DNA from: Methanospirillum hungatei
GTDB lineage: Archaea > Halobacteriota > Methanomicrobia > Methanomicrobiales > Methanospirillaceae
Direction of reading: 5' to 3'
Length of the DNA stretch: 64,000 nucleotides
NCBI RefSeq assembly: GCF_019263745.1
Contig: NZ_CP077107.1
Location: 1,054,001 to 1,118,000 of the forward strand
Shown here: piece by piece, positions 5,020-46,329 of the stretch
Position numbering within the stretch: position 1 is the stretch's first letter
Layout of the letters: every line of letters begins with the position of its first letter
Position numbers and translations under genes: made by a program
Notes under the pieces: generated by a model
What the model saw: only the letters and a program-made list of their open reading frames with translations
Database searches by the model: none
What the model was told of the DNA's origin: nothing

Positions 5020-5544
5020 TCAATATTCTATCCCTCTTCTCGCTTTCACCCCCGTATCAAAATAATGTTTCACCTTTTTCATCTCGGTGACCAGATCTGC
5101 AGCTTCAATCAACTCATGTGGAGCCTTTCTTCCGGTGAGAATCACTTCCACCCATGGTTTTCGGGATCGAAGCATGGAGATTATCTCTTCAACGTTGATT
5201 AACTGGTAAAAGACACTCAGGATTATCTCATCAAGGACGACCAGGTCAAAATAACCGGATAAAATCACGCTTTTGCAATGTTCAAACCCTTGTCTGGCCT
5301 GCTTTCGGTCCTCTTCAGTGGGATTATTGGTAATGAACTTCCCTGTTCCATACTGTTCCATCACAAAGGTATCAAAAAGCGAACACAAACCCATTTCAGC
5401 TGTCTCTGATCCTTTACAAAACTGGGCAAAATACACTGACCCTCCAGAGAGAAGAGTCCGGAGGGAAAGACCCAATGCAGCGGTTGTTTTCCCCTTTCCG
5501 TTTCCACAATAAACCTGAATGTATCCTTTCCTATCTTTGTGCAT
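5020..5544 (-). CDS. cobO: Cob(I)alamin / corrinoid adenosyltransferase (CobA/CobO/BtuR family)
   Basis: A 174-residue protein of the usual length for the family. The P-loop GNGKGKTT (residues 14-21) binds ATP in the reversed orientation typical of CobA. The segments FAQFCKG and VVLDEI and the C-terminal GVKARRGIEY are family landmarks. The enzyme transfers the 5'-deoxyadenosyl group of ATP to Co(I) corrinoids (cobinamide or cobyrinic acid diamide) in the cytoplasm. It is monocistronic here and converges with the pseudogene on its right-hand side. Together with the CbiZ gene at 26.8-28.0 kb it indicates corrinoid salvage in this organism. Confidence 0.92.
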   Translation of the reverse strand: MHKDRKGYIQVYCGNGKGKTTAALGLSLRTLLSGGSVYFAQFCKGSETAEMGLCSLFDTFVMEQYGTGKFITNNPTEEDRKQARQGFEHCKSVILSGYFDLVVLDEIILSVFYQLINVEEIISMLRSRKPWVEVILTGRKAPHELIEAADLVTEMKKVKHYFDTGVKARRGIEY

Positions 5545-10923: not shown

Positions 10924-13900
10924 GTGAAAATATTCTATATCAGCGCTGGAACGGGTGAAAATCCCTGGATTATGAATGCCGCATCCACATGCAGGGAGAA
11001 TGGAAGAAGCGTAGATGCATTTCAGGCTACATCCGAACTGATTGATTCAGAAGAAAAGGAATTTGCAAGAATTCTAAATGAATTATATGATACACATCTC
11101 CTTCTGATAGATAATCATGGAAGTGCGACCTATTTCAAAAAATTTGACCGTTTAATTGCGAAGGCCAAAGACCTTCATATTCCAACCTTCGTCTGCAGTT
11201 CGGTTCCGGAGGAGATGAAAGACTTCCGTATCCTCTTTCCTTTTAGCACAGATGATTATGAGTTTGTTCATTCCTGCCTGGAACTGAGTGGGCTTGAAAA
11301 TACAATCTCTCTCATTCTTTGGGCCTGCAAAACCATCGGAGGAGAAAATATTGAGATCCCTCCTCTCCTGTATCCTCCGACAGAAGGATTCTATCATCCG
11401 TCGCTTCCTGAAATCTACGACTATCCATCCCATGAAAAGAGGCTGGATAAGGAAAAACCAACTATAGGAATTCTTCTCCACCAGTTTTATTATATCAGAA
11501 AAAATCTGCTCCCCATCAATGCTCTCATTTCATCTTTAGAAGCTAAAGGGATGAATGCCCTCCCTTTCTTCCTGGTTACCAGTCCGAATGAAGTCACCGG
11601 TGCAATTGGAATCAGGAAATTTATTGAAAAATACCTGATCAGGGATGGAAAACCCATCATTGGTGTCCTGATCATTAACATGTCATTTTCCCAGATATCC
11701 CTCTCTGATCCTGGTGATGGGACGAAAAACGGACCAGTTTATAATTTTTTCATCGATCTGAATGTCCCCCTGCTCCAGACCATAACCATGTACCGATCAT
11801 ACGAAACCTGGTCTCAGGATGACCAGGGCTTATCGGTTATGGAGATCTCATCAGGAGTGATCTGGCCTGAATTTGACGGACAGATTATTGCAATTCCCCT
11901 CGGGTCAACCGGTGAATATGAAGGCAGAAAGAATGTGAGTATTCCCATACCAGGACGTGTTGACCGGATTGCAGAAATGGCCCTTCGCTGGTCCATCCTG
12001 AAAAGAACCCCGAACAATGAGAGAAAGATTGCTATCCTCCTGTACCAGTACACCGGAGAGACTGAAGCCCTTGGTGATGCAGGAGGTCTTGATACCCCGC
12101 AGAGTGTCATCGGAATCCTGCGAAGATTAAAGGATACTGGTTATATCGTAGATCATATTCCGGAGACAGGAAATGAACTGATAGAGGGGATGATTGCCGG
12201 CCTTACCAACGACACCCGCTGGATATCTGATAAGCAGATGCAGGAGCGATCCGTTGATCTGGTCTGTCCTGAATTATACTTTGAATGGTTTACAAAAATC
12301 CCAATGAAGAACCAGGAGAAGATATCAGCAGACTGGGGTCAGGCACCTGGTGAGATTCTGGTATCAGGCGGGGATTTTTGCATTCCTGGCCAAGTAAACG
12401 GAAATATCTTCATCGGCATCCAGCCTCCCCGTGGGCTGTTTGAAAAGGTCGAGTCATTAATTCACTCAAATGATATGGTCATGCCCCACCAGTATCTTGC
12501 TTATTACAGGTGGATGAAACATGTCTTCGGTGCCCATGCGATAATCCATATGGGCACTCACGGAACCCTTGAATGGCTCCCCGGAAAGGGAAATGCGTTG
12601 TCAGAGGAGTGCTATCCGGATGTCATTCTCGAAGATATGCCCCATGTCTATCCCTACATTATGAATGATCCCGGTGAGGGAATTCAGGCAAAAAGGAGGA
12701 GCTGGTCAGTCCTGCTTGACCACCTGGTCCCGGCGATGATGAGAGCAGAGGGATATGGAGATCTCTTGCAGCTTGATACCATTCTTCAGGATTATATCAG
12801 GGCGAAAAGAGGCGGAGAGGAGCAGAAAGCAACCGACCTGATCACAGAAGTCCAGACCATTGTTCTTGCCAGAAACCTGACAAATGACCTAAATATTCCA
12901 GTAGACGCAGGAATTGAAGCCATCGCTGACAATGCGGAACGTCTCTACGATTATATTTGTGAAGTGCGGGATGTTATCATCAAGGACGGTCTGCATATCT
13001 TTGGACAGCCCCCGGTTGATGAACGTTTCCTGGAGATGATCTATGCCCTCACCCGGCTTGAAAATGGGAAAAACCCATCACTGCGGGAATCAGTCGCTGA
13101 AACATTTGATCTCTCTCTTCAGGATCTTTTGGATAATCCATCAGGCTTTCATGAACATCATGGATTAACTAACGGAGCTCTTGTTGACTTGATAGACACC
13201 CGTTGCCAACAGTTGATCGGGAAGATGGCTGAATTTGAATTTGACAAAGAACAGGTAATTTCTCATATTAGAAAAGAGTATGGAGAGGATTATAAGGATC
13301 TTGAAACATGTTGCACGTTCATCTGTGACGATGTGGTGACTCGGTTAAACCAGACAACCGATGAACTCACAAATATGATACGAGGGCTTGATGCAGGATA
13401 TGTTCCACCCGGCCCTTGTGGCGACCCGACAAGAGGGAATGTCCACCTTCTCCCTACGGGAAGGAACTGTTTCTCCATTGATCCGGCTACAATACCGACA
13501 CCAGCAGCATGGAAGACCGGGAAAGACATGGCTGACCAGATGATCGAGCGGTATATCACCGAAAAAGGAGAATACCCGCAGAAAGTCGGTATCGTTGTAT
13601 GGGCCACGGACACTATGCGGACCGGTGGTGATGACATAGCCTATATCTTCTGGCTTATGGGATTACGGCCAGTATGGTCTTCCCGTGGCGGAGCAGTGAC
13701 CGGTCTTGAGGTAATCCCTGCAAAAGAACTGGGCAGACCACGCATTGATGTAACTCTCCGGATAAGCGGCCTGTTCCGGGACAGCTACCCCAATCTTGTA
13801 CAGCTGATTGATGAAGGCGTTGAGACCATAGCAACCCTCGATGAATCAGAAGAGGTCAATTACCTCTCATCACACTTAAAGCAGGACATGTTGGCAAAAT

Positions 13901-14676
13901 TAAAAGAAGGACTCTCAGAACAGGAGGCCAGGGATATGGCACTGATTCGTATATTCGGTGATCCTCCCGGAAATCATGGATGTGCTGTAGGTGAAGTTGT
14001 CCATGCATCTTCCTGGCAGGACAGGAAAGACCTGGCCGATGTATATACCACCTGGGGTGCCCATGCCTATGGCAGAAAATTCAGGGGAGAAAAAGTCCCT
14101 GAAATCTTCAAAGAACAGTTTGCACAATTGGATGTGACGGTGAAAAACCGAGTATCTCGTGAATTTGATATCCTTGATGTTGATGATGATTACATCTTCC
14201 TTGGCGGGATGAATGCCTGTGTGAAGGCATATGGGAATAAAGATCCAGTATCGGTAATCGGGGAAGCTTCAGATCCTAAAAATGTCAAAACCCGTCTGCT
14301 TGATGAAGAGATCAGGTTTATTTTCCGGAGCAGAGTCCTCAATCCCCGCTGGATAGACGGTTTAAAACCCCACGGTTTCAGAGGTGTGCAGGAGGTCATG
14401 AACACCATCGAGTATACGTTTGGGTGGGATGTGACCTCCGATGCCGTCGATGACTGGGAGTATCAGGCTGCTGCAGAACATTTTCTCTTTGATGAAGAAA
14501 ACCGAAAGTGGATTGAAGAGAATAATCCATATGCCATGCATAACATCGTAGGAAGGCTCCTTGAAGCATATGAACGGGGATTCTGGGAGACTGACGATGA
14601 GACAATAAAAAAATTACAAGATATATACCTCGAGTCAGAGGAGTATCTTGAACGGATGGGGGATTTAAATGAATAA
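10924..14676 (+). CDS. cobN: CobN/BchH-type metallochelatase large subunit
   Basis: A 1,250-residue protein of the length expected for CobN. The family block HMGTHGTLEWLPGK starts at residue 542 and is followed by IMNDPGEGIQAKRR. Later come WSSRGGAVTGLEVIPAKE and DVTLRISGLFRDSYPN, all hallmarks of the tetrapyrrole-binding large subunit of ATP-dependent cobalt or magnesium chelatases. It works with AAA+ subunits of BchI/BchD type, and such genes lie on the opposite strand at 23.9-26.8 kb. The GTG start is supported by GGAGG at 10911-10915, eight bases upstream. Which metal and which macrocycle it handles cannot be read from sequence. In methanogens a cobN-like gene is often not part of cobalamin synthesis, where CbiK or CbiX inserts cobalt early. 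Confidence 0.92.
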   Translation: MKIFYISAGTGENPWIMNAASTCRENGRSVDAFQATSELIDSEEKEFARILNELYDTHLLLIDNHGSATYFKKFDRLIAKAKDLHIPTFVCSSVPEEMKDFRILFPFSTDDYEFVHSCLELSGLENTISLILWACKTIGGENIEIPPLLYPPTEGFYHPSLPEIYDYPSHEKRLDKEKPTIGILLHQFYYIRKNLLPINALISSLEAKGMNALPFFLVTSPNEVTGAIGIRKFIEKYLIRDGKPIIGVLIINMSFSQISLSDPGDGTKNGPVYNFFIDLNVPLLQTITMYRSYETWSQDDQGLSVMEISSGVIWPEFDGQIIAIPLGSTGEYEGRKNVSIPIPGRVDRIAEMALRWSILKRTPNNERKIAILLYQYTGETEALGDAGGLDTPQSVIGILRRLKDTGYIVDHIPETGNELIEGMIAGLTNDTRWISDKQMQERSVDLVCPELYFEWFTKIPMKNQEKISADWGQAPGEILVSGGDFCIPGQVNGNIFIGIQPPRGLFEKVESLIHSNDMVMPHQYLAYYRWMKHVFGAHAIIHMGTHGTLEWLPGKGNALSEECYPDVILEDMPHVYPYIMNDPGEGIQAKRRSWSVLLDHLVPAMMRAEGYGDLLQLDTILQDYIRAKRGGEEQKATDLITEVQTIVLARNLTNDLNIPVDAGIEAIADNAERLYDYICEVRDVIIKDGLHIFGQPPVDERFLEMIYALTRLENGKNPSLRESVAETFDLSLQDLLDNPSGFHEHHGLTNGALVDLIDTRCQQLIGKMAEFEFDKEQVISHIRKEYGEDYKDLETCCTFICDDVVTRLNQTTDELTNMIRGLDAGYVPPGPCGDPTRGNVHLLPTGRNCFSIDPATIPTPAAWKTGKDMADQMIERYITEKGEYPQKVGIVVWATDTMRTGGDDIAYIFWLMGLRPVWSSRGGAVTGLEVIPAKELGRPRIDVTLRISGLFRDSYPNLVQLIDEGVETIATLDESEEVNYLSSHLKQDMLAKLKEGLSEQEARDMALIRIFGDPPGNHGCAVGEVVHASSWQDRKDLADVYTTWGAHAYGRKFRGEKVPEIFKEQFAQLDVTVKNRVSREFDILDVDDDYIFLGGMNACVKAYGNKDPVSVIGEASDPKNVKTRLLDEEIRFIFRSRVLNPRWIDGLKPHGFRGVQEVMNTIEYTFGWDVTSDAVDDWEYQAAAEHFLFDEENRKWIEENNPYAMHNIVGRLLEAYERGFWETDDETIKKLQDIYLESEEYLERMGDLNE

Positions 14677-14733: not shown

Positions 14734-15690
14734 ATGGTAGCAATACAGACAGAAAACCTGACTAAAAATTTCGGAGCTCTGTGTGCTGTAGATGATCTAA
14801 CACTAGAGGCTGACAAAGAGATATTCGGTCTTCTTGGACCGAACGGATCCGGGAAAACCACAACCGTCCTGATGCTGACAACGCTTCTTGCCCAGACAAA
14901 GGGTCAGGCATGGATCTGCGGGTATGATACCAGAAAGGAACCGGATAAAGTCAGGAGTTCCCTCAGTTATGTTCCTCAGGATATGGCCATTGACACCAAC
15001 CTGACCGGACGGGAAAACATGATGATCTTTGCAAAATTGTACGGTATTTCACATCCAAAGGAACGGGTCGATGAGATACTTGGTGTCATGGAGTTATCTG
15101 ACCGTGCAGACGACCAGGCTAAGACATATTCCGGAGGGATGAGAAGGAGACTAGAACTGGCAGAGGCCCTTGTTCATGAACCTGATGTTATCTTTCTTGA
15201 CGAACCTACACTTGGGCTTGATGTCGGAGCCAGAAAAATAATCTGGGAACATATTCATGCCCTGAACCGGAAAGGAATGACAATATTTGTAACCACCCAT
15301 TACATGGACGAGGCTGATCACTTCTGCGACCGGGTCGGAATCATCAATCATGGGAAAATCGCAGCCCTCGGGAAACCATCAGACCTGAAATCACTTCTGA
15401 TGAAAGATATTATTTCTGTCACTATAGAGGGCGAATACCATCCAATAGAAGAGGAAAACATTATTTTTGTTGGCCAGTCGGATAATGAGATCTCATTTAC
15501 CGCTGAAAATGGACGTGAAGCCCTCGCAATTCTTGCTGATGCCCTTACTCGTTCAGGAAACAGGATAAAATCTATGGAACTTCGTGAACCTTCCCTTGAT
15601 GATGTCTTTCTGCAATCCGTGGGTAGGCAGGAAGAACCGCAGGGATTTGAAGAGTGGAAATACCGGATGATGCTTCGGAGGAGAACATGA
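14734..15690 (+). CDS. ABC-2 type exporter ATPase (DrrA/CcmA-like)
   Basis: A 318-residue ATPase with Walker A GPNGSGKTT, signature TYSGGMRRRLELA, Walker B VIFLDEPTLGLD and the switch His in FVTTHYMDEAD. The C-terminal 80 residues (IKSMELREPSLDDVFL) are typical of DrrA-like drug or polysaccharide exporters. The start at 14734 has GGAGTGAT eight bases upstream. It lies 57 bases after the CobN-like gene in the same direction and overlaps its permease by ATGA. This hints that a product or intermediate of the chelatase locus is exported, or that the pump protects the cell. That link is inference. Confidence 0.9.
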   Translation: MVAIQTENLTKNFGALCAVDDLTLEADKEIFGLLGPNGSGKTTTVLMLTTLLAQTKGQAWICGYDTRKEPDKVRSSLSYVPQDMAIDTNLTGRENMMIFAKLYGISHPKERVDEILGVMELSDRADDQAKTYSGGMRRRLELAEALVHEPDVIFLDEPTLGLDVGARKIIWEHIHALNRKGMTIFVTTHYMDEADHFCDRVGIINHGKIAALGKPSDLKSLLMKDIISVTIEGEYHPIEEENIIFVGQSDNEISFTAENGREALAILADALTRSGNRIKSMELREPSLDDVFLQSVGRQEEPQGFEEWKYRMMLRRRT

Positions 15691-16412
15691 AAGGAGTACT
15701 CACATATATTGAAAGGGATTTCATCAGGTGGATCCGGTACCGGGTTGGGGTAATCTCAAGCCTTGTCCTCCCTGCTGCATGGCTGCTCTTTGTCGGGCTT
15801 GCCCTGCCGGTCCAGTTTACCGGAAATTACCTGGATTTTATTACTCCCGGCATCCTTGTTATGACCATTCTGACTGCCGGAATATCCAGTGGTTCTCTTC
15901 TCATGTTTGATAAAATGCTTGGATTTTTAAATAAATTCCTTGCCATGCCAGTACCCCGTGAAAGTATCCTTATCAGTAAAATTCTCTTCATCACGTTCCG
16001 GGGGATCATTCAGACAAGTATTATTCTCATCCTTGCGACCCTTATCGGTGCCTCTCTATTAAACCCGGTCCAGTATGGCATGATTTATCTCATACTTTTC
16101 CTGTTTGGTGTTTTCATCGCTGCATTTTCAACGACGGTAGCCCTGTACCTCGATGATCATGACTCATTTGCCGCATTTACTGCTATGGTCACCATGCCCT
16201 TATTTTTTACTTCAAGTGCGCTGATGCCCTATGAGGTGATGCCGGACTGGCTTCGCATGATTGCTCAGGTAAATCCACTCAGTTATGCAATTGATGCAAT
16301 ACGGGAGTTAGGAACCGGTATCATCCCAGTGGTTCCGATTTTTGTTCTTACCTTGTTTGCTGCATTTATTGTGGTAATTTCCGGATATGTATTCAGAAGA
16401 GTAACAGTTTAG
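15687..16412 (+). CDS. ABC-2 type exporter permease
   Basis: A 241-residue membrane protein with about six hydrophobic segments and the ABC-2 motifs NKFLAMPVPRESILISK and FFTSSALMPYEVMPDWLR, followed by NPLSYAIDAIRE. I start it at 15687, where ATG overlaps the ATPase stop. The longer reading from 15654 would lie within the ATPase gene. It forms the membrane channel for the preceding ATPase, probably as a dimer. The substrate is unknown. The two genes with cobN look like one transcript. Confidence 0.88.
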   Translation: MKGVLTYIERDFIRWIRYRVGVISSLVLPAAWLLFVGLALPVQFTGNYLDFITPGILVMTILTAGISSGSLLMFDKMLGFLNKFLAMPVPRESILISKILFITFRGIIQTSIILILATLIGASLLNPVQYGMIYLILFLFGVFIAAFSTTVALYLDDHDSFAAFTAMVTMPLFFTSSALMPYEVMPDWLRMIAQVNPLSYAIDAIRELGTGIIPVVPIFVLTLFAAFIVVISGYVFRRVTV

Positions 16413-17113: not shown

Positions 17114-18391
17114 CTATTTGTATCGAATCGTATCGAAAATAAAATCAAGTAACCATAACGCCCCGGTTCCTCCAAGAAAGGTTCTTTCGGTGAAATAAAT
17201 ATCATTTGTCGTCCGGTTAAACAGTTCCACCGACTTCACACATCTACCGGAGAGTTCAAGATCTTTACCGGTCAGACTATCACCAAAATAGAGGTGAAAT
17301 GGCACATCTCCTGCATCTGCCTGAAAGCAACAGGACAATTGGTAAAACTCTAAAAATTTTTTCAGGGATTGAACCATCTCGCCATCTTTTCCATCAGTAC
17401 AATTCACAGATACCGGTAACATACCAAGATATTCATACAGCCACGTAGTTAAGGGATACACGAAAGAAGAATCTCCCCGAACGGAAAAGGTAGCCCCTTT
17501 CGGATACCCTGCCTCATGGTGATACCGCGATAACTGGTGAAATGCATGAGTCCGTTTTTTTCGAAGATATGCAAGTGCAGGTGCAGGATCCTGTCCCGTT
17601 GCCTCTGCAACCGTGTTAATCCATACTTCTGTGGGGCCAAAACCCACCGGTGCTCCGGATGGTGAGGTTACAAATGGGATCCCAAATTCTTCTTTGTAAA
17701 ATTCCGCCGTTTTTCGGGAATATTCCGGATGGATCATAAGATTACAGGAAGCGGTAGTCGATTCACGAAGTTCTGCTACACAGGAACCTCCCCCTGGCAC
17801 TGAAACAACACAAAGACCCATCAGTTCACAAAGGTGCATAATTTCAGCAATATTACCCTGCCAGTATTTCTGGTACATTGAAAACCCAAGAAGATTAACC
17901 CGGTTTTTTATCCGGGGGAGCCGGTTGAGCTGTAACCAGCGAAGAATAGCAGCAATAGTTAAATCAAAACCATATGAAAAAGGATGGGAATAGGGAGCCC
18001 CTTCAATAGCCATACACCGATCATCAAGAGATGCATCTTTGAGGAACCGGTTTATATCATCACCAATAAGTGAAGCCCCAGGGGAATTTACAACCGCAAG
18101 AAAAGCATCTCCTTTATCGGCCACAAGAGGAAGAACTGCCTTAAGTTTTTCTGCACATCCCAGAATATAGTCATCACGGTCAAGATATGTACAGGGAATC
18201 CTGGATTGTCCAAAGAAAAAGGGCTCTTCAAAGGAACGCCGGTTCAGGGAATTTTCTCGTGGAAAATGTCGGTCTGAAAAATAGGCAGGATTGCCTCTGC
18301 ATCCGGTGGGACCGTTCATAACTGCACGTGCATCCGCTATTCCCTCAATGGCAAGGAGAGTCCCGATAAAGCCATCCGGATCAAGAATCAT
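17114..18391 (-). CDS. Nitrogenase-like component 1 subunit (NifK/BchB-like)
   Basis: A 425-residue protein of the oxidoreductase/nitrogenase component 1 family. The N-terminal region has NGPTGC (Cys31), IPCTYLDRDDYILGC (Cys67, Cys79) and then VNSPGASLIGDD, where Ser103 stands at the position usually held by Cys in TTC...IGDD. Further on, PGGGSCVAELRE and PSGAPVGFGPT match the later alpha/beta domains. It overlaps the preceding NifH-NifD fusion by four bases, so it is probably the second half of a BchNB- or NifDK-like heterotetramer. Full nitrogenase is excluded by its small size and lack of NifE/N/B genes nearby. A tetrapyrrole or related ring reductase is the most plausible role. Confidence 0.85.
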   Translation of the reverse strand: MILDPDGFIGTLLAIEGIADARAVMNGPTGCRGNPAYFSDRHFPRENSLNRRSFEEPFFFGQSRIPCTYLDRDDYILGCAEKLKAVLPLVADKGDAFLAVVNSPGASLIGDDINRFLKDASLDDRCMAIEGAPYSHPFSYGFDLTIAAILRWLQLNRLPRIKNRVNLLGFSMYQKYWQGNIAEIMHLCELMGLCVVSVPGGGSCVAELRESTTASCNLMIHPEYSRKTAEFYKEEFGIPFVTSPSGAPVGFGPTEVWINTVAEATGQDPAPALAYLRKKRTHAFHQLSRYHHEAGYPKGATFSVRGDSSFVYPLTTWLYEYLGMLPVSVNCTDGKDGEMVQSLKKFLEFYQLSCCFQADAGDVPFHLYFGDSLTGKDLELSGRCVKSVELFNRTTNDIYFTERTFLGGTGALWLLDFIFDTIRYK

Positions 18392-20592
18392 GTGATACCA
18401 TCTCCATCAAGTTTCCACCCCTCGATTACAGGTACCTTCATCTGATCAATCCACATCATTGCTCGATCAATACCTGCCAGGAATCCAAATCCCGGACAAT
18501 ATGGAATGTGGGCACTTCTTGCATAATCAGAGCGACGGAGTGATGGATATGTCAATAAAACCAGGTCTGGTTTCAGATCCCTGATGTCATCAGATCTCAT
18601 TTCCAGGGTATAATTATGAACGATTGGAAAACGAGTTGAATAACGTGAGATAAATTCTTCTGAGAACGGCGAATAGGTAAGGCCGATCTTGAGAATCGAC
18701 ATTCCAAGGTCATAGGCAAGATCACACACCCAGTCTACAGATTTGGGGTATGTCGAGATGAGAATAGTTTTTCTCTCCAGATCCGGTTTGAGAAGTTCAA
18801 TCTTTTTCTTGTATTTTATCTCTTCCGCCTCAATTATTTCACGAGCCTTTTCTTCCATGTCAAAAACACGGGCTACAGCCATAAGCCACTCTTTTGTCTC
18901 AAAAAAACCTGTTGGAAGAGGCATATCCAGAAACGGGACTGATGATACCGGTGCAAGTAATGTTTTGATACTCGCCACCGTATCATCACGGTCAGCGGGA
19001 AGGTTCAGAGATGCCTCGTTAAATCGTATCAACGACCGGCTGTCAGAATGAATCAAAAAACGGCAATTTATCCCAATCCCAAGCCTATCAAGTAACTCCA
19101 GGACCGCCTTGATACTCTGCTCTTCATTCTCTGCAAGCCACTTTTCTGCGATAATATTTACAAGCGGTGTCTGTCCCGAGGAAATATCTTTCTCTACCAG
19201 GCTGATTACTGCATTATGGGCATCCATAACACCCTGCACATAATCCCCTACAAGGTTTCCGTCAACTTTGATCGGAACAATCCGGATAGCATCATGCTGT
19301 TTTGTGACTCCAGCAATCACTTTATCGATATCATCACCAATAATTCCCGGAGGGCAGGTTGTTACAATAAAAATCAGGCTGAAACCATCCGAAATTACAG
19401 ATTCAAGGGTTTCTTTTAATTTTGTCTCCCCACCAAAGATAAAATCCTCGTCAGCCATATCTGTGGAGTACAATCTTTTGGTAAGGTTTTTTCGGTATTC
19501 ATGACCAAACCGGATTGAGGAATTTTGTAAGGTATCAAGAAGTTTTTCATACATCATCAGGGTACAACTTCGGGGACCATGCATAACGGTGGCAGCATCA
19601 GTTACCTGAGATGATGCGGAAACCGCTCCTGCAAAGGCACAACCTATCAGCGGACGCTTGTTTTTTACCGATACTGAAAGTGTCTTTTGAACGGATTTTG
19701 TATTATGAGGATGAAAAATAAATTTTGTATTTGGAACTATTTCATTTCGCATCAGGACAATACACTCCAGATCAGTATCGCTCAGTGGAGCGGCAGGGTA
19801 CAGAAGACCGCCATTATCTGGATGAAGAATCATTGTATGTTGAGCAAATTTATGAAAGAGCACCGCTTCAGGAGAATCCGGGTATCGTTGAATAACAGTA
19901 CATCCATCTTTTTCTGACTTGGCAAAAATATCACTTCTCGGTATTTGAATAACCACCGGCAGGCTGACAGCATCTGCAAAACGCTTCACCCGTAGATCTT
20001 CTTCCAGATCACCCCGTGCATTATGAATAATTCCGGCAATTCTGTTCTTGGTTTCTGTAAAATTCCGTATCCCCTTCAGAATATTGTTAGCTGCATACAG
20101 GGACATAAATTCCCCGGAAGTTATGATATACACTGCATCAGCATATTCACTTCTGATAGGAACGGCAAATCCTCCACAGACAACATCACCAAGAACATCA
20201 TACAGGGTAACATCAAACAGGGATGATTGCACGCCTAGTTCTTCCAGGAGTTCGAATGTCGTAATTACCCCCCTACCTGCACATCCCACTCCGGGCTCTG
20301 GTCCACCGGATTCAACACAGGCAACATCACCAAATCCCCGGAACACAATATCTTCAGCCTTCCGTTCAGACGGGTCATGTGTTTTGATATATTCAAGAAC
20401 GGTCATGGGAATCTTCCCCCCTAACAGGAGTCTGGTTGAATCATGCTTGGGATCGCATCCGACCTGGAGAATCCGATACCCGTTCATGGCAAGGGCAGCT
20501 GAAGTATTCGCTGAGATCGTGGATTTTCCAATTCCTCCCTTTCCATATATGGCAATCTTAATTTGGATCCCCTCCCGGCTTCCTGAATCCAT
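18388..20592 (-). CDS. Fused NifH/BchL-like reductase and NifD/BchN-like protein
   Basis: A 734-residue fusion. Residues about 11-265 are a NifH/BchL/CfbC-type ATPase with P-loop YGKGGIGKST (16-25) and both cysteines that would bridge the [4Fe-4S] cluster (Cys104 in VGCAGRG, Cys139 in VVCGGF). Residues about 315-734 are a component-1 domain with three cysteines in the cluster positions: Cys318 (IGCAF), Cys343 (GPRSC) and Cys413 (TTCPPG-IIGDD). Electron donor and acceptor are normally separate proteins, so this fusion is unusual. The ATG at 20592 lacks a clear ribosome site. The family's normal N-terminus (xKIAIYGKGG) would begin at an ATT at 20562 that follows a GGGAGGGG, so the true start is uncertain. 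It overlaps the importer ATPase and its partner subunit. Confidence 0.88.
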   Translation of the reverse strand: MDSGSREGIQIKIAIYGKGGIGKSTISANTSAALAMNGYRILQVGCDPKHDSTRLLLGGKIPMTVLEYIKTHDPSERKAEDIVFRGFGDVACVESGGPEPGVGCAGRGVITTFELLEELGVQSSLFDVTLYDVLGDVVCGGFAVPIRSEYADAVYIITSGEFMSLYAANNILKGIRNFTETKNRIAGIIHNARGDLEEDLRVKRFADAVSLPVVIQIPRSDIFAKSEKDGCTVIQRYPDSPEAVLFHKFAQHTMILHPDNGGLLYPAAPLSDTDLECIVLMRNEIVPNTKFIFHPHNTKSVQKTLSVSVKNKRPLIGCAFAGAVSASSQVTDAATVMHGPRSCTLMMYEKLLDTLQNSSIRFGHEYRKNLTKRLYSTDMADEDFIFGGETKLKETLESVISDGFSLIFIVTTCPPGIIGDDIDKVIAGVTKQHDAIRIVPIKVDGNLVGDYVQGVMDAHNAVISLVEKDISSGQTPLVNIIAEKWLAENEEQSIKAVLELLDRLGIGINCRFLIHSDSRSLIRFNEASLNLPADRDDTVASIKTLLAPVSSVPFLDMPLPTGFFETKEWLMAVARVFDMEEKAREIIEAEEIKYKKKIELLKPDLERKTILISTYPKSVDWVCDLAYDLGMSILKIGLTYSPFSEEFISRYSTRFPIVHNYTLEMRSDDIRDLKPDLVLLTYPSLRRSDYARSAHIPYCPGFGFLAGIDRAMMWIDQMKVPVIEGWKLDGDGIT

Positions 20593-21598
20593 GAATTTTT
20601 TCTACAAGATGCTGAATACTACAGCAGTTTTCAATACAATCAGAATGAGAGATCTGCCATGTTGTCCCCTCCGGAAAATTCTGAACACGAACAATAAAAT
20701 CAGGTATTGATCCTTCAGCCGGGATATATCCTATCCGTTCCAGGGCATATAAAGTCCATATCCGCTGAACTGATTCGGAACCCTCAATCTGAAAAGTTCC
20801 CCTCTTTTCAACCGGAATTGAAAACTCTCCCCGGTGTGGATCAAAATGTACTCCATCTATCTCAAATGCAGATCCAAAGATACCGGATAGGACAAGGTCT
20901 TCAGGTGTGCCTGCTATCATCGTTCCTGTTTTGTTCATAATCCAGAGTTGGTCTGCACACCTGATGGCAAGGTTCAGATCATGGGTTGAGAATAGTATTG
21001 ACTTTCCGGATTTTTGTGCAACCTGTCGAAGGATCCGCATGGTTTCGATTTTATGAGGAAGATCAAGGAATGCAGTAGGTTCGTCAAGCACCATAAGTTC
21101 AGGCTCCTGGGCAAGTGCCCGGGCAATCATCACCTTCTGACGTTCCCCATCACTCATCTCATGAATAAACCGGTTTGAAAGGGTGGCTGCACCGACCGAT
21201 GTAAGAGCAGTCGATACAATATGCCGATCTGACTGGGTCAGCCTTCCAGCCCAGTTTGTGTATGGAAACCGGCCAAGCGCTACAATGTCAAAAGCAGTCA
21301 TGTACCCGGTCTGGACCGGTGTAGTAAGAACAACACTGAGTGTCTTTGCCTTTTCTGCAGAACTGAACTCATCTATACTCTTTCCCTGGAGCAAGACATT
21401 ACCCTGAAGTGAAGGTTGTATACCAGTAATTGTCCTGATAAGCGTGGATTTTCCAGAACCATTCGGACCGATCAGGCATACAAGTTCTCTTCGGTTCAGT
21501 GTCAGGTTCAGATCTTTTGAAACCTCTTTTACTGTTGATTTTTGATTTCTGTACCCTATGGTAAGATTTTTACAGGTAAGGACAGGTGTATTGTTCAT
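20558..21598 (-). CDS. BtuD/FecE-type importer ATPase with C-terminal extension
   Basis: A 346-residue ATPase. Walker A is GPNGSGKST, the signature is MSDGERQKVMIARAL, Walker B is LMVLDEPTAFLD and the switch is FSTHDLNLA, as in cobalamin and ferric-siderophore importers. I start it at 21598, where ATG overlaps the permease stop. About 100 residues after the ATPase core (EIDGVHFDPHRGEFSIP onward, ending in DCIENCCSIQHLV) are not part of the usual BtuD. They contain a repeated-strand layout and three close cysteines, and could be a regulatory domain. The gene ends inside the NifH-NifD fusion start, so uptake and reduction are coupled in one operon. Confidence 0.88.
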   Translation of the reverse strand: MNNTPVLTCKNLTIGYRNQKSTVKEVSKDLNLTLNRRELVCLIGPNGSGKSTLIRTITGIQPSLQGNVLLQGKSIDEFSSAEKAKTLSVVLTTPVQTGYMTAFDIVALGRFPYTNWAGRLTQSDRHIVSTALTSVGAATLSNRFIHEMSDGERQKVMIARALAQEPELMVLDEPTAFLDLPHKIETMRILRQVAQKSGKSILFSTHDLNLAIRCADQLWIMNKTGTMIAGTPEDLVLSGIFGSAFEIDGVHFDPHRGEFSIPVEKRGTFQIEGSESVQRIWTLYALERIGYIPAEGSIPDFIVRVQNFPEGTTWQISHSDCIENCCSIQHLVEKIHGFRKPGGDPN

Positions 21599-22668
21599 GA
21601 GATAACCCCTCTTCCAAATCTGGTCCCCCTGACAATTACCCAGATAACTACCGGAGCACCGAAGAGAGCAGTAATTGCATTCAGGGGAAGAACAATGTCC
21701 GTTCCTGGGAGGTGCGAGATGAGATCGGTACACAGGGCAATGATTCCTCCTACGAGGATACACCCGGGAACAAGGATCCGGTGGTCAGCAGTCACAAATA
21801 TTGCCCTGCAAAAATGAGGTATAGCAATCCCAAGAAATCCAATTGGTCCACAAAATGCAGTCACAACCCCTGCCATAAGAGCCGTTGTTATGATGATACC
21901 ATATCTGATACCATTATAATTCATCCCCATACTTTCTGCATACTGCTCTCCTAGCAGAAGAGCGTTCAATGGCTTTACCAGGCAAATGGAAAGAATATAA
22001 CCGATGAGGAGAAGGAACACCATAAACGGGAGCTGACTCCAGGTTACTCCGGAAAAACTTCCGAATGTCCAGAATGAATACGAGTGCATGGCCGATTCAT
22101 CAGAAAACTGTAGCAGTATGGTCACTATTGCACTGCTGATATATGATACCATTATTCCCAGGATAAGGATCGTAATATTACTCTGAATTTTTCCAGATAT
22201 CAAAAGAATTAGCAGCAATACCAAAAAAGCTCCGACAATTGCAGCCACAGAAATACTGAGATCCCCGATAAACCCAACACTGGCAAATATCGTTCCGGCT
22301 CCAAAAATACCTGCAGATAACATTACAAATGCCACACCAAGTGAAGCTCCCGAACTTATACCAAGAATATACGGATCGGCAAGCGGATTTCTGAAAAACG
22401 TCTGCATCAATAATCCTGAAAGCGCTAGAGCTCCACCTGCAAAAAGTGCCGTGATAGCTTTTGGCATTCTCCAGTCCCAGAATATGTTCATCCAGGTCTC
22501 TTTCACTTCTCCACCAGTGATTATCCTGACTAATGCATCAGGAGGGATGTTCACTGATCCGATAATCAGGTCAAGCAGGAAAAGAAATAAGAGAATTCCT
22601 ATGATAGCCGGGAGTACAACATAAAATCTTTTCAGACTGTCTCCCGTTTCATTACCATCCATATCCAT
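21595..22668 (-). CDS. BtuC/FecCD-type importer permease
   Basis: A 357-residue permease with about ten membrane helices. The typical FecCD pattern WDWRMPKAITALFAGGALAL, then LSGLLMQTFFRNPLADPY and GISSGASLG, is present, followed near the end by CGPIGFLGIAIPHFCR. The family carries corrinoids, heme or ferric siderophores across the membrane with a BtuF-type binding protein. It begins 14 bases after the binding-protein gene and overlaps the ATPase gene by ATGA. Within this operon it sits between chelatase-type AAA+ genes and the nitrogenase-like genes. Confidence 0.9.
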   Translation of the reverse strand: MDMDGNETGDSLKRFYVVLPAIIGILLFLFLLDLIIGSVNIPPDALVRIITGGEVKETWMNIFWDWRMPKAITALFAGGALALSGLLMQTFFRNPLADPYILGISSGASLGVAFVMLSAGIFGAGTIFASVGFIGDLSISVAAIVGAFLVLLLILLISGKIQSNITILILGIMVSYISSAIVTILLQFSDESAMHSYSFWTFGSFSGVTWSQLPFMVFLLLIGYILSICLVKPLNALLLGEQYAESMGMNYNGIRYGIIITTALMAGVVTAFCGPIGFLGIAIPHFCRAIFVTADHRILVPGCILVGGIIALCTDLISHLPGTDIVLPLNAITALFGAPVVIWVIVRGTRFGRGVIS

Positions 22669-22682: not shown

Positions 22683-23858
22683 TCAGGTTGCATTGATATG
22701 CTGGTAGTAATACAGGTCATGATAAGACAGCAGATCCGGCTGAAGGATTTTTACCAAATCGACCAGGACAACATCAGGGCTGATTATTCCAGACTGCCAG
22801 TAATCATTCCCTCCATACTCATTTACCCGGGCATTATAGTGATAAATCCTGTTCTCCTGGAATGCCTTGAATTTCTGATACCGCTGATCAAGGGCAAGGA
22901 GTTCATCTATATTGTCAGCATATCCAATATTTATCCAGTAATCTGCTGCCTGTGCCTTGTCATACACCGATTCAAAATCGAGAGTTTTGTCACCTCTGTC
23001 ATTCCCATCTCCAAGCAGGTAATTGCCACCAGCATCCCGGAAGAATGCAGCCACGTAACTACTCCCGCCCGGAGCATACCAGGAACCCTGGTAATCAATT
23101 CCAGAGAATATAGTTGGTTTTTGAGAGATGTTTTGGACTTTTTCTTTCGTTTCGAGGTAATTCTTTTTTACCTGATCAAAAACCTGGTTTGCGGTTTTTT
23201 CCTTGTTATAAAACAGGGAGAAGAATTTGATCCATTCAGCACGTCCAAGAGGGCTTTCTTCCATCCATTCAGCAGAAATTACCGGTTTTAATCCAGCTTC
23301 CTGGAGTTTATAGTGATTATCGTACTCTTTATTTCCATTAGCTACACAAAAAACCGCATCTGGTTCAAGTTCTATTAAATCTTCCATTTTAAGCATGGTA
23401 CCCATTGAAAGCTCCCCACTTCCAATCTCTATGATATCCCCTTTCTGTACCAGCTGTATAAATTCAGGATCCTGAACAAGATTTACTCCATTGTGACCCG
23501 TAATTGTTGCAATTTCTCCAAGTTTACTAATAAACGGAATCTGGACAGCACCAAGTGTTACCACGTTCTCTAACGGGATAAAAAAAACCTTCGCATTGGG
23601 ATAACCAGCAGGTACCTCCTCACCCCGCTGAACCAGAAGGTAGGTATAATTTTCAGTATCTCTTCCCCAGGGATCATGAATATGAATCACCTTGTATGTG
23701 TCGTGATATTCAACAGAAAAACCCTTTGCAAATTCAGGATTTACCTTATCAGGGAATAATCCACCGGATTCTCCCAGAACGATACACGGGAGGCAGATAG
23801 TCAATGCAATCGCTATGAATAAAAAAATATACAATTTTTTCAGAATTTTCTCAGTCAT
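22683..23858 (-). CDS. BtuF/FepB-like substrate-binding protein
   Basis: A protein of about 391 residues with an N-terminal signal peptide (basic MTEKILKK, hydrophobic run, LGESGG). The two-lobed periplasmic-binding fold of the iron/B12 type is visible: VIHIHDPWGRD at the start, then DLIELEPDAVFCV and the long linking helix, ending with FQENRIYHYNA. I place the start at the ATG at 23858 because AGGTGAT, a full match to the archaeal anti-Shine-Dalgarno, ends four bases upstream. A GTG at 23867 is possible. It would catch the ligand outside the cell and hand it to the permease. It resembles methanogen binding proteins linked to metal-chelate uptake rather than E. coli BtuF, and is about 100 residues longer. 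Confidence 0.85.
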   Translation of the reverse strand: MTEKILKKLYIFLFIAIALTICLPCIVLGESGGLFPDKVNPEFAKGFSVEYHDTYKVIHIHDPWGRDTENYTYLLVQRGEEVPAGYPNAKVFFIPLENVVTLGAVQIPFISKLGEIATITGHNGVNLVQDPEFIQLVQKGDIIEIGSGELSMGTMLKMEDLIELEPDAVFCVANGNKEYDNHYKLQEAGLKPVISAEWMEESPLGRAEWIKFFSLFYNKEKTANQVFDQVKKNYLETKEKVQNISQKPTIFSGIDYQGSWYAPGGSSYVAAFFRDAGGNYLLGDGNDRGDKTLDFESVYDKAQAADYWINIGYADNIDELLALDQRYQKFKAFQENRIYHYNARVNEYGGNDYWQSGIISPDVVLVDLVKILQPDLLSYHDLYYYQHINAT

Positions 23859-23863
23859 GTTCA

Positions 23864-25735
23864 TCACCTTTCAGAATACATCAATTCGTTAACACAGCCG
23901 GCAAGGCCATGAATACTCAAATCTTCAAGTCGGAAATAAGATCCATTCAGATCACGTGCAAGAATACGTGCCCTGTCAAGTCGGGGAAATCCGGACTCTG
24001 TATCTACTACCACAAACCTGACACCAGTCCCGGTGATTTTTCGGGCAATTAAAGCCAGCTCTTCTCCGGGGGCTTTATTAGTAAGAGGCATATTTCCCCT
24101 CCCATCAGTCAGAAGAACAATGGATTTATTCTCACCGGGTGCTGCATACTTACCACGAGTAAGCAGCAGGTATCCTTCAGTTAAACCCTTTAGAAGGGGA
24201 GTTTTCCCACCGGTTGGAATTGCTTTCAGCAATTTTGCTGCAAGCTCCGGGCTTCGTGTTGGAGGAAGAAGAAGATCTGCAGAATCACCCCTAAAGATCA
24301 TAAGACCAACCCTATCACGTTTCTGGTATGCATCGTTGAGCAATGATAAAATTGCACCTTTTACTGCCACCATACGTTTCTGCACCCCCATCGAGCCGCT
24401 GGCATCAACAAGAAACAGAATCGTATGTGCAATTTTCTTTTCCCTGACTTTCTCTCTGATGTCGGTTTTTTTCACAGATATTGCAAGCCCGTTTCTGTTC
24501 CGTATCCTTTGATACGGAGCTGCTGCACGAATGGTTGCATCAACCGCAATATCATTTCTGCATCTTCCGGGATACCGGAATGAACGATAATGACCTGATG
24601 AATCAGAACTGATTACCCTGCTTCTCCGGCCGCTTTTTTGTTTCTGTGTCACCTGCCAGGTATTTTCATCCAGGTACCTGATTACCTCAAAGGGAGATCC
24701 AATATCAAAATAGCGGTCAGGAGGGGGAGTAGGGATTTGATTTTTTTCCTGGTTTTTCTTGTCCTGCTCACCAATCTGATCATCTGACCTCGTATCAGGC
24801 TGATTTTGTTTTTCTGATCTATTTTTATCGGAATCCTGCTCAGGTCTCTCCTCTTTTTCAGAATGGGGCGGATGAGGAGGCCGATCCTGGCGGTCACCTC
24901 TCCGGTGCTCTAGAGCAAAAAGGGCAGCAAGTTTGATGTCATCGAATATTACCTCATCTCTCCGGTCAAGTGCTGCAAGAGCTTTTGCAGTCCTGGCAAC
25001 AGCAATATCCCCCCGATATCCTTGTACTGCCAGTTCGATACAGAGTGATGATATCAGATCTGCATGACCATCAGGGATGCTTACATAGAGAAACCGTTCC
25101 TTTGCGGCCTGGATATTTTTTTTTAGATCATCCGTTTCCTTTTCACATCCAAGGACAAAGGCATCAGGAGAATGTTCAAAACTAAGAGCTTTACGGATTA
25201 TTTCTGCCCGCATTCCGGTTTCGGTTATCTGATCAGTTCTGATACAGAGGTCAAACCGATCCATCTGACCAGAAGACAATTCTCCTTCCGCAGGATCCAT
25301 ACTTGCCAGAAAGGTAAACCGGGTTGAAATCATCCGGGATAACCCTTCCCGCTCAAGCAGATACTGACCGGTTTCAGATGTCGAGAGAATACTCTGAATG
25401 ACTCCTTCATCCATCAGGTTGATATCATCTGCATACAGGATCTGGTTATTCCCTTCCTGTAAGATTCCTGGATGGACATGCATATTACCACTGGTAATCA
25501 CTTTTTCCAGGTCAATGGTCCCTAAAAGCCGGTCATAGGTTACATTCTGGGGAATCGTGATGACCTTTTTCCTATCCGTAAGAGTCTCAACCGACCGTAC
25601 CAGAGCAGACTTGGCCGTTCCCGGATTTCCCAGAATGAGAATACTGCGGATATCATCACAAACAAGAGCACATAACAGTGCTTTTTTGGCATGTTCCTGC
25701 CCGGTTATTTCGGTAAAAGGGAAAAGATGATTCAT
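23864..25735 (-). CDS. BchD/CobT-like chelatase subunit (AAA plus VWA domains)
   Basis: A 623-residue protein. The N-terminal AAA+ module has Walker [10 protein letters not shown] and sensor features like [20 protein letters not shown] long Glu/Lys/Gln/Asp-rich linker in the middle ([14 protein letters not shown] region) is typical of BchD. The C-terminal von Willebrand A domain has the MIDAS motif DASGSMG plus the Thr and Asp partners ([15 protein letters not shown]). With BchI and a CobN/BchH-like large subunit it makes an ATP-driven metal chelatase. The ATG at 25735 overlaps the BchI-like stop, and a longer reading from 25750 is less likely. It runs to within five bases of the binding-protein gene. 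Confidence 0.88.
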
Positions 25736-26775
25736 GAGCTTTCGTAACAACTCTCAATTATCCCACGAACAGCAGCGAAATCCATAGAACTCTCTTCAAA
25801 TGGCCTTCTTCTCATCCGGTGTGGGAGTGAAAGTCCTGCAGCTTTTATTACATCGTTACAATTCACTACTTTTCTTCCATCAAGTGCAGCAAAAGCTAAA
25901 GCAGTCTTTACCAGAGTAATATCAGACCGATGCCCATCAACACCCAGGGAGAGAGAAATTTTTACAGCGGTATTTATCAGGAGATCATCAGGCCGTAATT
26001 CAGCGATGATCTGTTTGGCCCTGATAATATGGTCCCGGATTGCCTGCTGTTCGGCCTGAAAGGAAGTACAAAACACAACAGGATCACGTTCAAAATTAAG
26101 CCTTCGTTTTACGATCTCCGACCGTTCCCTGTTATCCTTTTCACCTTCAACATCAACCACCAGACCGAACCGATCTAGAAGCTGAGGGCGAAGATCTCCT
26201 TCTTCAGGATTCATCGTTCCAACAAGAAGGAACCGTGCAGGGTGGGAATATGAAATTCCTTCACGCTCAACAAAATTTACTCCCATCGCTGCTGCATCAA
26301 GGAGAAGATCAACAATATGATCATCGAGAAGGTTCACTTCATCAACATAGAGAATATTGCCGTTTGCCATCGCAAGTACTCCAGGTTCAAATTTTTTGAT
26401 TCCCTTGGTAATGGCATGTTCAATATCAAGAGTACCTGCAACCCGGTCTTCTGTGGCACAGAGAGGAAGTTCCACAACCCGCATACGAGTATATTCAGAG
26501 ACTGGGTTTTCACCCTGAGCAATCTTTTCACGGCATGTTTCACACAGATTTCTAGGATCCCTGATCTCACAACGAAATATACATCCTTTCATCACCTCTC
26601 GTTCAGGAAGAAGATCAGCAGCAGCTCTGACGGTTGTTGATTTCGCCGTCCCTTTCTCCCCCCGGATGAGCACCCCACCAATGGACGGATAGATGATATT
26701 TGCGAGCAATGCATCTTTCATATCCTGCTGCCCGACTATGGCTGAAAAGGGGAATACAATTATCTCATCTTTCAT
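25732..26775 (-). CDS. BchI/ChlI-like AAA+ chelatase subunit
   Basis: A 347-residue AAA+ ATPase with Walker [10 protein letters not shown] (39-47), Walker B ILYVDEVN (residues 141-148), sensor [20 protein letters not shown] and the second-region motif HRSDITL. This is the motor subunit of magnesium or cobalt chelatases. An insert after the P-loop carries four cysteines (65, 69, 78, 81) in a CxxxC-x8-CxxC pattern, which may bind metal or be redox sensitive. It overlaps CbiZ and the BchD-like gene by four bases each. It is probably the partner of the CobN-like protein encoded on the opposite strand. Confidence 0.9.
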
Positions 26776-27956
26776 ACGTTATTTCCTGAAAACCCACATT
26801 TTACACACCATGCAGAGAGCCGCACCCAATTCTCAATGATACTATTTCTTTCATCAATAATAGCGTTAAAATCCGGTTTTTTCTGTGTATTGACCACATC
26901 CGGAAGAGTCTTCATCACCGAAATGGCCGCACTTTTCCCAGCCAGTTCAGGAATAAGTCCCCAGCTCACTTCATCTACAATATGGAGGAGGGAAGAGACC
27001 ATTGCAACCACAGTGGGCGTTTTAGAGAAGTTACGAAGATTCCGGATAAATAGATCTCTTTTATTCTCACCCTCAAGGGAAGCAGCAACCTCCCAGTATT
27101 TCTTCTCATCTATCCCGAACCGATCAAGTCGAACCAGCATATCCCTCTGAGAATCCGGAGTCAGATTGGTCTGTTTTGCTAATGCTTCGGTCGTTGCATC
27201 AATGACACACCTGGCAACCAGTTCACCAAGTTTGGAATGTTTTCCAGCCCAGGTGATCACATGCGGACTTTCCAAATTCGAGATGACACAAATCTGGTCT
27301 GTCCCTGAACCGGTTGCAATGCCCGTAGAATATTTACTCGGGGCCATTAACTGCTGAATTGCGACAGTTTTTGCTTCAGTAGCGGTCATGATCACACGGG
27401 TCAGAGTATGAGCAGGAAGGCAGCAGTTGACAAGGATGATGGTATTAATGGTCCCACCAACATAGATCGTTTGTCCTTCTTCCTCATGCCATGAGGCAGG
27501 ATCCCCTGCCCTCCCCCCGTTTACCTCAATTCCCGCCGTTACTATCGAGGTTACTTCCAGGTTCCGGAATGAACGCGTTGAAATCGCAGCATTCTTCATC
27601 TTTGCTGCGGTCATCATGGCTGCAGTGGTATCTGGGTCAAGACCAAGCCGACGGGAATGGATACCAATATAGGCCTCTACACTCCCTCCTTCAAGGTCAT
27701 GGGAACAATGTCCCTTTGTGGGTTTTGGTTCATGGTTGAAGACAGATGTAAGATCTTCCTGGTACCCGCCATTCACATACGAGGTGGTTACTGCATTTCG
27801 CTTTCCAGGAAATCTGACAACAATAGAATTTTCATTCCGAAATACCTCCTCACCGCTGCTCGTTTTATAAATCATCTGCAGAGTTGTGCACTGATCAACC
27901 GAGTTATTTTCATTTTTTTCCAAAATTTTAACTCCAAAATTTTTTAGTCTTATCAA
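26772..27956 (-). CDS. cbiZ: Adenosylcobinamide amidohydrolase CbiZ with C-terminal extension
   Basis: A 394-residue protein. Residues about 40-262 match the CbiZ family ([29 protein letters not shown]-like [30 protein letters not shown]). CbiZ hydrolyses the amide bond of adenosylcobinamide or pseudo-B12, removing the aminopropanol arm so that archaea can salvage foreign corrinoids. Typical CbiZ proteins stop near residue 230-260. Here about 130 further residues (263-394) form a helical domain of unknown role with two cysteines near the end. The listed start is a TTG with no clear ribosome site. An internal ATG at 27875 would still keep the whole CbiZ core. It is the first gene of the gapless operon. 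Confidence 0.85.
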
Positions 27957-28094: not shown

Positions 28095-28940
28095 TTATTT
28101 AAGGAAACTATGAGAGTCCGCCGTTCTTTTCAGCCGGTTCATGAATAGTTCTATGACCAGATCATATTCTCCTAATCCTTTGGTTTCAACCGTCACCGTA
28201 CAGCCAATAGACTCTAACTGTTTCTGCCATGACTGATTATTTGCATCGCCGGAAAGTTCTATCCATGCATGAATTCCGGGAACAATGGTGAGAGGTACCA
28301 GTTTTACTTTCTTTGCCCCGATATGAGAAAGGCGTGTTTTCACCTTTTCAAAGTCCGGATATCCATTCACTGTTCCGATGATGATCTGACCACTATGTGA
28401 GATGTCGTCCAAAATCATCTGTAATTGGCAGAGTGCAGGTTCGGCTCCCCCTTCTGCTGTAGGGGATACCAGGACAACTGCCTCATCTTTTTCTTTCGGA
28501 GAATAGATTGACTCGATTGCTTTCGCAGTGTCTGCATAATCTTCGGGGTTCATAAGGAGTGAGGAACTGATGAGGATACCATCAAAGCCGACTGCTCCAT
28601 GTGCCCCGGCTAGTTCATTGAGGGCAGTGATAATTGGATATAATTCATGGTACCGTGCCCCTGATGTTATAAATAACGGCTGCACAACAACCTGTGAATG
28701 CCCTTTATCAAGAAGGGACGTAATTGCTGCCAGAGGTCCCTGGATATATTCATTCTGTTCCCGCAGGACTAATCTGACCGGTTCGGATGTGAATGAATAC
28801 GCAACCTCTGCTTTTGGGTACGATGTCTGAATTCGCTTAACACAGGAGTCAATTACTGCTCTTCCTTCTGCCTGGGTTGTTCCGATGGAGACCAGTAATA
28901 CTGCTCCATGACTCTCGATTTTTTTGCCATGACCTTTCAT
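28095..28940 (-). CDS. CbiK-like protein lacking the usual chelatase ligands
   Basis: A 281-residue protein alignable along its length to CbiK, the anaerobic sirohydrochlorin cobaltochelatase: LLVSIGTTQAEGR at the N-terminus, SFTSEPVRLVL, SGARYHEL, GTVNGYPDFEKV and the final KGLGEYD. The family motif MGHGTxH, which supplies a metal-ligand His, is replaced by SPTAEGGAEP (residues 159-168), and GTVEG is GTVNG (Asn192). Only the His of PGIHAW (His224) remains. It therefore may bind a tetrapyrrole without classic cobalt insertion, or act in another way. It lies upstream of CbiZ in the same direction with a 138-base gap. The AT-rich region before it holds TATA-like sequence around 28990-29000. Confidence 0.75.
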   Translation of the reverse strand: MKGHGKKIESHGAVLLVSIGTTQAEGRAVIDSCVKRIQTSYPKAEVAYSFTSEPVRLVLREQNEYIQGPLAAITSLLDKGHSQVVVQPLFITSGARYHELYPIITALNELAGAHGAVGFDGILISSSLLMNPEDYADTAKAIESIYSPKEKDEAVVLVSPTAEGGAEPALCQLQMILDDISHSGQIIIGTVNGYPDFEKVKTRLSHIGAKKVKLVPLTIVPGIHAWIELSGDANNQSWQKQLESIGCTVTVETKGLGEYDLVIELFMNRLKRTADSHSFLK

Positions 28941-35785: not shown

Positions 35786-35791
35786 AGGAAA

Positions 35792-36757: not shown

Positions 36758-36760
36758 AAC

Positions 36761-36772
36761 ATAAGTACTTAT
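36761..36772. promoter_or_regulatory. 12-bp palindrome in divergent promoter gap
   Basis: ATAAGTACTTAT is a perfect palindrome centred in the 36-base gap (36758-36793) between the leftward binding-protein gene and the rightward permease gene. The gap is too short for two separate promoters with leaders, so the transcripts probably start at or near the start codons. A single bound regulator could control both sides. Confidence 0.45.
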
Positions 36773-36793
36773 CTTTCGTTAGGTAAAAATTAT

Positions 36794-43421: not shown

Positions 43422-43445
43422 AACCCGGTCAACTAAGATCGGGTT
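43422..43445 (-). terminator. Hairpin terminator after IS110 transposase (copy A)
   Basis: On the leftward strand AACCCGATC-TTAGTT-GACCGGGTT forms a 9-base-pair stem (one G-T pair) followed by TTTTC. It overlaps the transposase stop codon at 43444. It looks like an intrinsic terminator, and it may also be part of the element's end. Confidence 0.55.
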
Positions 43446-44890: not shown

Positions 44891-44908
44891 TACATCATGT
44901 CGTTTTTT

Positions 44909-46305: not shown

Positions 46306-46329
46306 AACCCGGTCAACTAAGATCGGGTT
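46306..46329 (-). terminator. Hairpin terminator after IS110 transposase (copy B)
   Basis: Same 9-base-pair hairpin with T-run as at 43422-43445, overlapping the stop of the second transposase. Confidence 0.55.

Follow-up and report, generated by a model that had tools for sequence, protein, structure and literature searches.

NflHD, a conserved NifH–NifD-like fusion protein of methanogens in a tetrapyrrole/corrinoid gene context

A gene of Methanospirillum hungatei, here termed nflHD, encodes a NifH-type ATPase and a NifD-like catalytic domain in a single polypeptide, and sequence comparisons show it to be a true and stable fusion among the nitrogenase-like reductases, set in a well-supported tetrapyrrole/corrinoid context. 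Together with its partner subunit NflK, NflHD is proposed to form a nitrogenase-like, ATP-dependent tetrapyrrole reductase that carries a single [4Fe-4S] cluster, assembles as H2:D2:K2 and most likely acts on an imported corrinoid, a reading to which we assign a probability of roughly 0.55. The analysed DNA, referred to as the window, is a stretch of 64,000 nucleotides from a host assembly that consists of a single 3.39-Mb contig. In the known nitrogenase-like enzymes, a separate Fe protein docks and leaves for each electron transferred. Two questions are central to their mechanism, namely whether this departure is obligatory and whether the two halves of the tetramer fire independently of each other. 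A fusion that occurs naturally and fixes the stoichiometry, present also in Methanosarcina-type genomes, constitutes a ready-made test object.

Domain architecture of NflHD

The features of the fusion gene and its neighbouring partner gene are as follows.

18388..20592, minus strand: nflHD, 734-aa NifH-type ATPase plus NifD-like domain (both Pfam domains) in a single open frame, fused in 32 loci
19831..20559, minus strand: NifH domain, residues 12–254, with P-loop GKGGIGKST and Cys104 and Cys139 as predicted bridging-cluster ligands (PF00142, 4e-89)
19642..19764, minus strand: linker, residues 277–317, a probable flexible tether enriched in P, S and K
18391..19641, minus strand: NifD-like domain, residues 318–734, with predicted ligands Cys318, Cys343 and Cys413 and without FeMo-co ligands (PF00148, 9e-59)
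17114..18391, minus strand: nflK, NifK/BchB-like partner, overlapping the nflHD stop by 4 nt (PF00148, 2e-42)

The frame contains no internal stop, and a Pfam search places both Fer4_NifH (PF00142, residues 12–253) and Oxidored_nitro (PF00148, residues 318–682) within it. A preliminary description of this DNA had proposed exactly this 734-residue chain, without naming the strand, and had located the junction near 19640–19700, close to where the linker is found (approximately 19642–19764).

Translation may instead begin at an AUU codon at 20562, leading to a protein of 724 aa. The codon aligning with the nflHD start is ATT in most Methanomicrobiales homologues (start regions of loci L014 and L070–L099), and the ATT overlaps the stop codon of btuD (in the window AATTAAG, 20558–20592), with a GGAGG-like site upstream. 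In-frame ATG, GTG and TTG codons are absent from the start region in L014, while the position is occupied by ATG in L071 and by TTG in L078. This pattern across the homologues suggests an AUU start of nflHD. In the Methanosarcina-type loci L095 and L096, the codon at this position is ATA.

Conservation and descent of the fusion

Beyond the window, 31 loci in 30 other methanogen genomes encode the fused nflHD as one continuous frame, giving 32 loci with that of the window. Within the taxonomic order, full-length, one-frame matches were obtained in eleven other genomes at 59–69% identity, as well as more divergent fused copies at 39–50%; a close relative, Methanospirillum stamsii, is 69% identical. 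The preliminary description had raised a stop or frameshift at the junction as a possibility; since the one-frame fusion recurs in many genomes, a sequencing error is excluded without re-sequencing.

When only the D domain was used to search 393 Halobacteriota genomes, 22 orthologues were retrieved (35–100% identity), every one of them fused in a single frame of 735–807 aa. Below these lay a clear gap in identity, followed by separate, split proteins at 34% or less, and no split orthologue of the D domain was found among the 393 genomes. The 22 genomes encoding NflHD include Methanosarcinaceae, the family names of the relatives' genomes being inferred from genome kinship, while most sampled relatives lack NflHDK. 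Homologues are fused throughout the clade, a point that the preliminary description had proposed to check.

In phylogenetic trees, the H domains of NflHD formed one clade (support 100/100), as did the D domains (99/98), and this monophyly fits a single origin of the fusion. The D domain falls with archaeal NflD proteins of the split kind, its sister being the unfused NflD encoded after cfbC in other Methanomicrobiales (support 88/97, and 83/98 in a second tree); the Bch branches were very long. No plasmid record covered 80% of the query at a single place, and no relative was found among viral contigs. Judged by these comparisons, the fusion is true, old, evolutionarily stable and common to many methanogens.

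A survey of gene fusions in archaea, published in 2024, devotes one sentence to a NifH–NifD/E fusion in Methanomassiliicoccales (cluster 443), of which both composite and split versions are recorded for Methanosarcinales and Methanomicrobiales (PMC11237513). This is probably the same fusion as NflHD, and the survey's sentence on the cluster gives neither operon, partner subunit, ligands nor function; its split forms may be the cfbC–nflD cluster seen here. Nitrogenase-like groups IV–VI have also been outlined, with group VI comprising putative tetrapyrrole enzymes (PMC9391474, citing Meheust et al. 2020). Searches of an open-access library yielded no account of the operon, of its cluster ligands or of a function for the fusion, and such absence is no proof.

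The NflK partner and the predicted cluster ligands

In all 32 loci nflHD is directly followed by nflK, a gene that the preliminary description did not mention, nor did it mention the operon that the two genes end. The five NflHD cysteines numbered there (Cys104, Cys139, Cys318, Cys343 and Cys413) proved correctly placed and are invariant in 32 of 32 homologues. In the H domain, Cys104 and Cys139 occur together with a P-loop, the features of a nitrogenase Fe protein. Alignment with NifD/K, BchN/B and BchY/Z puts Cys318, Cys343 and Cys413 at three D-side ligand positions, and Cys31 of NflK, according to the alignment and the solved BchB structures, at the position of the BchZ cysteine and of Asp36 in BchB. 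NflK Cys31 is likewise invariant, so that all four cysteines of the predicted catalytic cluster are kept in every sequence. The residues of NflHD and NflK thereby match the pattern of COR and DPOR, in which three ligands are located on the N/Y subunit and one on the B/Z subunit. Because NflK would supply the fourth ligand, NflHD alone is probably not a complete enzyme; the earlier suggestion that one chain unites the electron-donating ATPase and the catalytic component stands for the ATPase and for part of the catalytic component.

The six-cysteine set of a P-cluster (three on D, three on K) is only partly represented, since on the K side Cys31 alone is present and the other two NifK positions align with residues other than cysteine. 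Furthermore, the FeMo-co ligands Cys275 and His442 of NifD have no Cys or His counterpart in the aligned NflHD rows, although the alignment is uncertain near His442. The simplest reading of these residues is a single four-cysteine [4Fe-4S] cluster, as in chlorophyllide reductase, rather than a P-cluster or FeMo-co, and these ligands speak for an organic pi-system rather than N2 as substrate.

With two of the three K-side P-cluster cysteines and both FeMo-co ligands missing, N2 fixation by NflHD–NflK appears unlikely, and a role in nitrogen fixation was rejected. The broader idea of a relative of nitrogenase or methylthio-alkane reductase acting on small substrates (N2 or C–S bonds) draws on the shared fold family, yet it meets the same absence of ligands in the aligned homologues, and the genome already possesses its own NifH and NifDKEN-type set; we consider it very improbable.

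Linker and stoichiometry

The linker spans 40–119 aa in the homologues, is enriched in Pro, Ser and Lys, and shows a pairwise identity of 22%, compared to 67% for the H domain and 45% for the D domain. This variability, poor conservation and composition indicate that it is probably a flexible tether. The preliminary description had held that the fusion changes the docking cycle; this is only an inference, and the linker would fit a tether that lets the H dimer still dock and release, so that the cycle may well persist with a tied-on partner. Its further claim of a fixed stoichiometry is sound, as a 1:1 ratio of H to D follows directly from the fusion. As Fe proteins work as dimers, two NflHD chains would be required, which by simple arithmetic leads to a predicted (HD)2K2 assembly with one Fe-protein dimer per tetramer. 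AlphaFold models built from a two-sequence alignment reached a mean pLDDT of 37 and 33, and were discarded.

Operon and genomic surroundings

The operon on the minus strand runs in the order cbiK, cbiZ, chlI, chlD, btuF, btuC, btuD, nflHD and nflK, with cobN divergent. The genes surrounding nflHD and nflK are the following.

5020..5544, minus strand: CobA-type ATP:corrinoid adenosyltransferase (TIGR00708, 168 bits, just over the cut-off)
10924..14676, plus strand: CobN-type chelatase large subunit, divergent and syntenic (TIGR02257, 918 bits, above the 822-bit cut-off)
14734..16412, plus strand: ABC-2-type transporter (ATPase and permease) between cobN and nflK, often syntenic
20558..21598, minus strand: btuD-type ATPase of a FecCD/BtuCD-family importer, assigned with synteny (listed frame from 21763; start placed at 21598 on the basis of homologues)
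21595..22668, minus strand: btuC/FecCD-type permease (PF01032, 3e-80; best NCBIfam match BtuC, below the cut-off)
22683..23867, minus strand: btuF-type substrate-binding protein (PF01497)
23864..25750, minus strand: ChlD-like (AAA and VWA) class I chelatase subunit (TIGR02442, 536 bits, below the 779-bit cut-off)
25732..26775, minus strand: ChlI-like AAA+ class I chelatase subunit (TIGR02442/TIGR02030, below the cut-offs)
26772..27956, minus strand: CbiZ-family adenosylcobinamide amidohydrolase (PF01955, 194 bits, cut-off 27)
28095..28940, minus strand: CbiK-family chelatase (PF06180, 164 bits, cut-off 26)

The order cbiZ–(chlI–chlD)–btuFCD–nflHD–nflK is kept in Methanomicrobiales and several Methanosarcinaceae. 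Outside the Methanosarcina-type group, cbiZ is the most constant neighbour, being found near nflHD in 20 of 21 loci; for the single exception (L081), the retrieved stretch ends near the expected place of the gene. Methanosarcina-type genomes carry nflHD–nflK alone, with no cbiZ or transporter genes within a retrieved stretch of up to 20 kb, so that the pair does not strictly depend on its operon partners. Elsewhere, the M. hungatei genome encodes a second CobN, next to a full-length subunit of the ChlI/ChlD type (G000:C1:1147246-1152647; L101, L145), and a second CbiZ, and for this reason the copies in the operon look dedicated to it. No Rfam match was obtained in the window, and hence no recognised riboswitch.

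Three further observations concern other parts of the window. A second corrinoid-type importer (btuF, btuC, and btuD with an extra C-terminal domain) lies at 34811–39054, next to a TIM-barrel protein whose resemblance to CbiR was judged only by eye and whose AP_endonuc_2 match is weak and below the cut-off. At 49055–54159, two FmdE-family frames adjoin a third FecCD-type importer operon. Finally, 43444–46029 and 46328–48913 form a near-identical tandem duplication of approximately 2.9 kb, each with an IS110-family transposase frame and two pilin-like frames.

Proposed substrate and role

The joint presence of CbiZ and a BtuFCD-type importer is, at the level of family assignments, the combination of a corrinoid salvage system, and the gene neighbours favour a corrinoid as substrate. 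Against this reading, the pair stands without these neighbours in Methanosarcina-type genomes, most of the operon assignments lie under the curated equivalog cut-offs, and heme or siderophores are also among the cargo of FecCD-type importers. A possible alternative is that a non-corrinoid tetrapyrrole (heme, siroheme or an F430-type compound) is taken up, demetallated by CobN–ChlI–ChlD in the way HmuS treats heme, and then reduced at its ring or metal by NflHDK. Besides the promiscuity of the importer family, it has in its favour that HmuS, a CobN-family protein, is a de-chelatase that demetallates heme within the hmu uptake operon, and that the role of the archaeal CobN homologues was termed unclear by the authors of that work (PMC12583661). 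The most constant neighbour of nflHD, however, belongs to a family of corrinoid side-chain amidohydrolases, and we regard the alternative as rather unlikely. For the archaeal CobN-type chelatases themselves, the conserved operon offers a testable context.

It could also be that the cobalt of an imported corrinoid, not the ring, is reduced to Co(I), either for adenosylation by CobA or for handling by the chelatase. A cobA gene is present in the window, one adjoins an nflHD–nflK paralogue in L071 and another is contained in the L081 region; moreover, Co(I) requires a very low potential, which is within reach of ATP-driven Fe proteins. On the other hand, cobA lies outside the conserved operon, NflHDK is missing from the majority of the relatives sampled, and the known relatives of the family act on rings or small molecules, and this explanation is accordingly given a low, though appreciable, probability.

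A role in de novo corrinoid synthesis, as a stand-in for CbiJ, the cobalt-precorrin-6A reductase, could be imagined from the lack of CbiJ (TIGR00715) in a genome that does contain CbiD. CbiJ was, however, found in none of the 393 sampled Halobacteriota genomes, of which only 22 encode NflHD; the two distributions are not complementary, and replacement was rejected as a general explanation, its chances being slight at best. The precorrin-6A reductase of these archaea appears to be a gap in the pathway.

Under the preferred reading, that of a tetrapyrrole reductase acting on an imported corrinoid, the substrate would enter through the BtuFCD-type importer of the operon and be processed with CbiZ, the CobN–ChlI–ChlD chelatase and CbiK. 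Two NflHD chains would come together through their H domains, which would bind ATP and hold one [4Fe-4S] cluster between them by means of Cys104 and Cys139. Electrons would then pass to the catalytic [4Fe-4S] cluster, a single one whose ligands would be Cys318, Cys343 and Cys413 from NflHD and Cys31 from NflK, on the pattern of BchXYZ, and from there to the tetrapyrrole at the D–K interface, in what may be either a ring or a metal reduction. The fusion would fix H2:D2:K2, so that each heterotetramer has a single Fe-protein dimer where up to two would otherwise be available, and the flexible tether would raise the local concentration of the H dimer while still allowing docking and release. What the sequences show directly is the fusion with its conservation, the kept ligand residues and the operon; the type of cluster, the oligomer, the way the tether behaves, and both substrate and chemistry are proposals built on them. 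More speculatively, NflHD–NflK may be a permanently tethered Fe-protein/catalytic enzyme, forced into H2:D2:K2, in which one dimer must serve both D–K halves (or link tetramers), its reaction being a reductive step of corrinoid salvage that has no known enzyme; we put this forward as a tentative proposal.

Comparison with known systems

The closest parallel in ligand arrangement is COR (BchX with BchYZ), which acts on a tetrapyrrole (PMC7242693). Like the proposed NflHD–NflK enzyme, it has an ATP-driven Fe protein, three cysteines on one subunit and one on the other, and no FeMo-co ligands. In COR, however, BchX is a separate protein, whereas the H domain is fused in NflHD; the sequences are very distant, with long branches in the trees, and the neighbours of nflHD are corrinoid and chelatase genes rather than photosynthesis genes.

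CfbCD, the Ni-sirohydrochlorin a,c-diamide reductive cyclase of F430 synthesis, is likewise a tetrapyrrole reductase of methanogens, and CfbC is approximately 50% identical to the H domain of NflHD. NflHD nevertheless fell short of the NCBIfam cut-offs for both CfbC (317 vs 402 bits) and CfbD (35 vs 268 bits), and CfbD is a homodimer (PMC12176620), in contrast to NflHD with its K-type partner in all loci. In this genome, cfbC and cfbD are separate genes, with cfbC, and cfbD together with its neighbours, located elsewhere, and a role of NflHD in F430 synthesis was rejected.

The split cfbC–nflD–nflK cluster of other Methanomicrobiales (L133–L137, L140), followed in several cases by a frame of approximately 140 aa, contains the NflD that is sister to the fused D domain, but differs in being unfused, in following cfbC and in an NflK that keeps three P-cluster-type cysteines. 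The M. hungatei genome has cfbC and the approximately 140-aa frame (L138) without nflD–nflK. Lastly, the HmuS system resembles the nflHD operon in placing a CobN-family protein within a tetrapyrrole uptake operon; it differs in that HmuS uses NADH and heme, while the nflHD operon additionally encodes ChlI, ChlD, CbiZ and a nitrogenase-like reductase.
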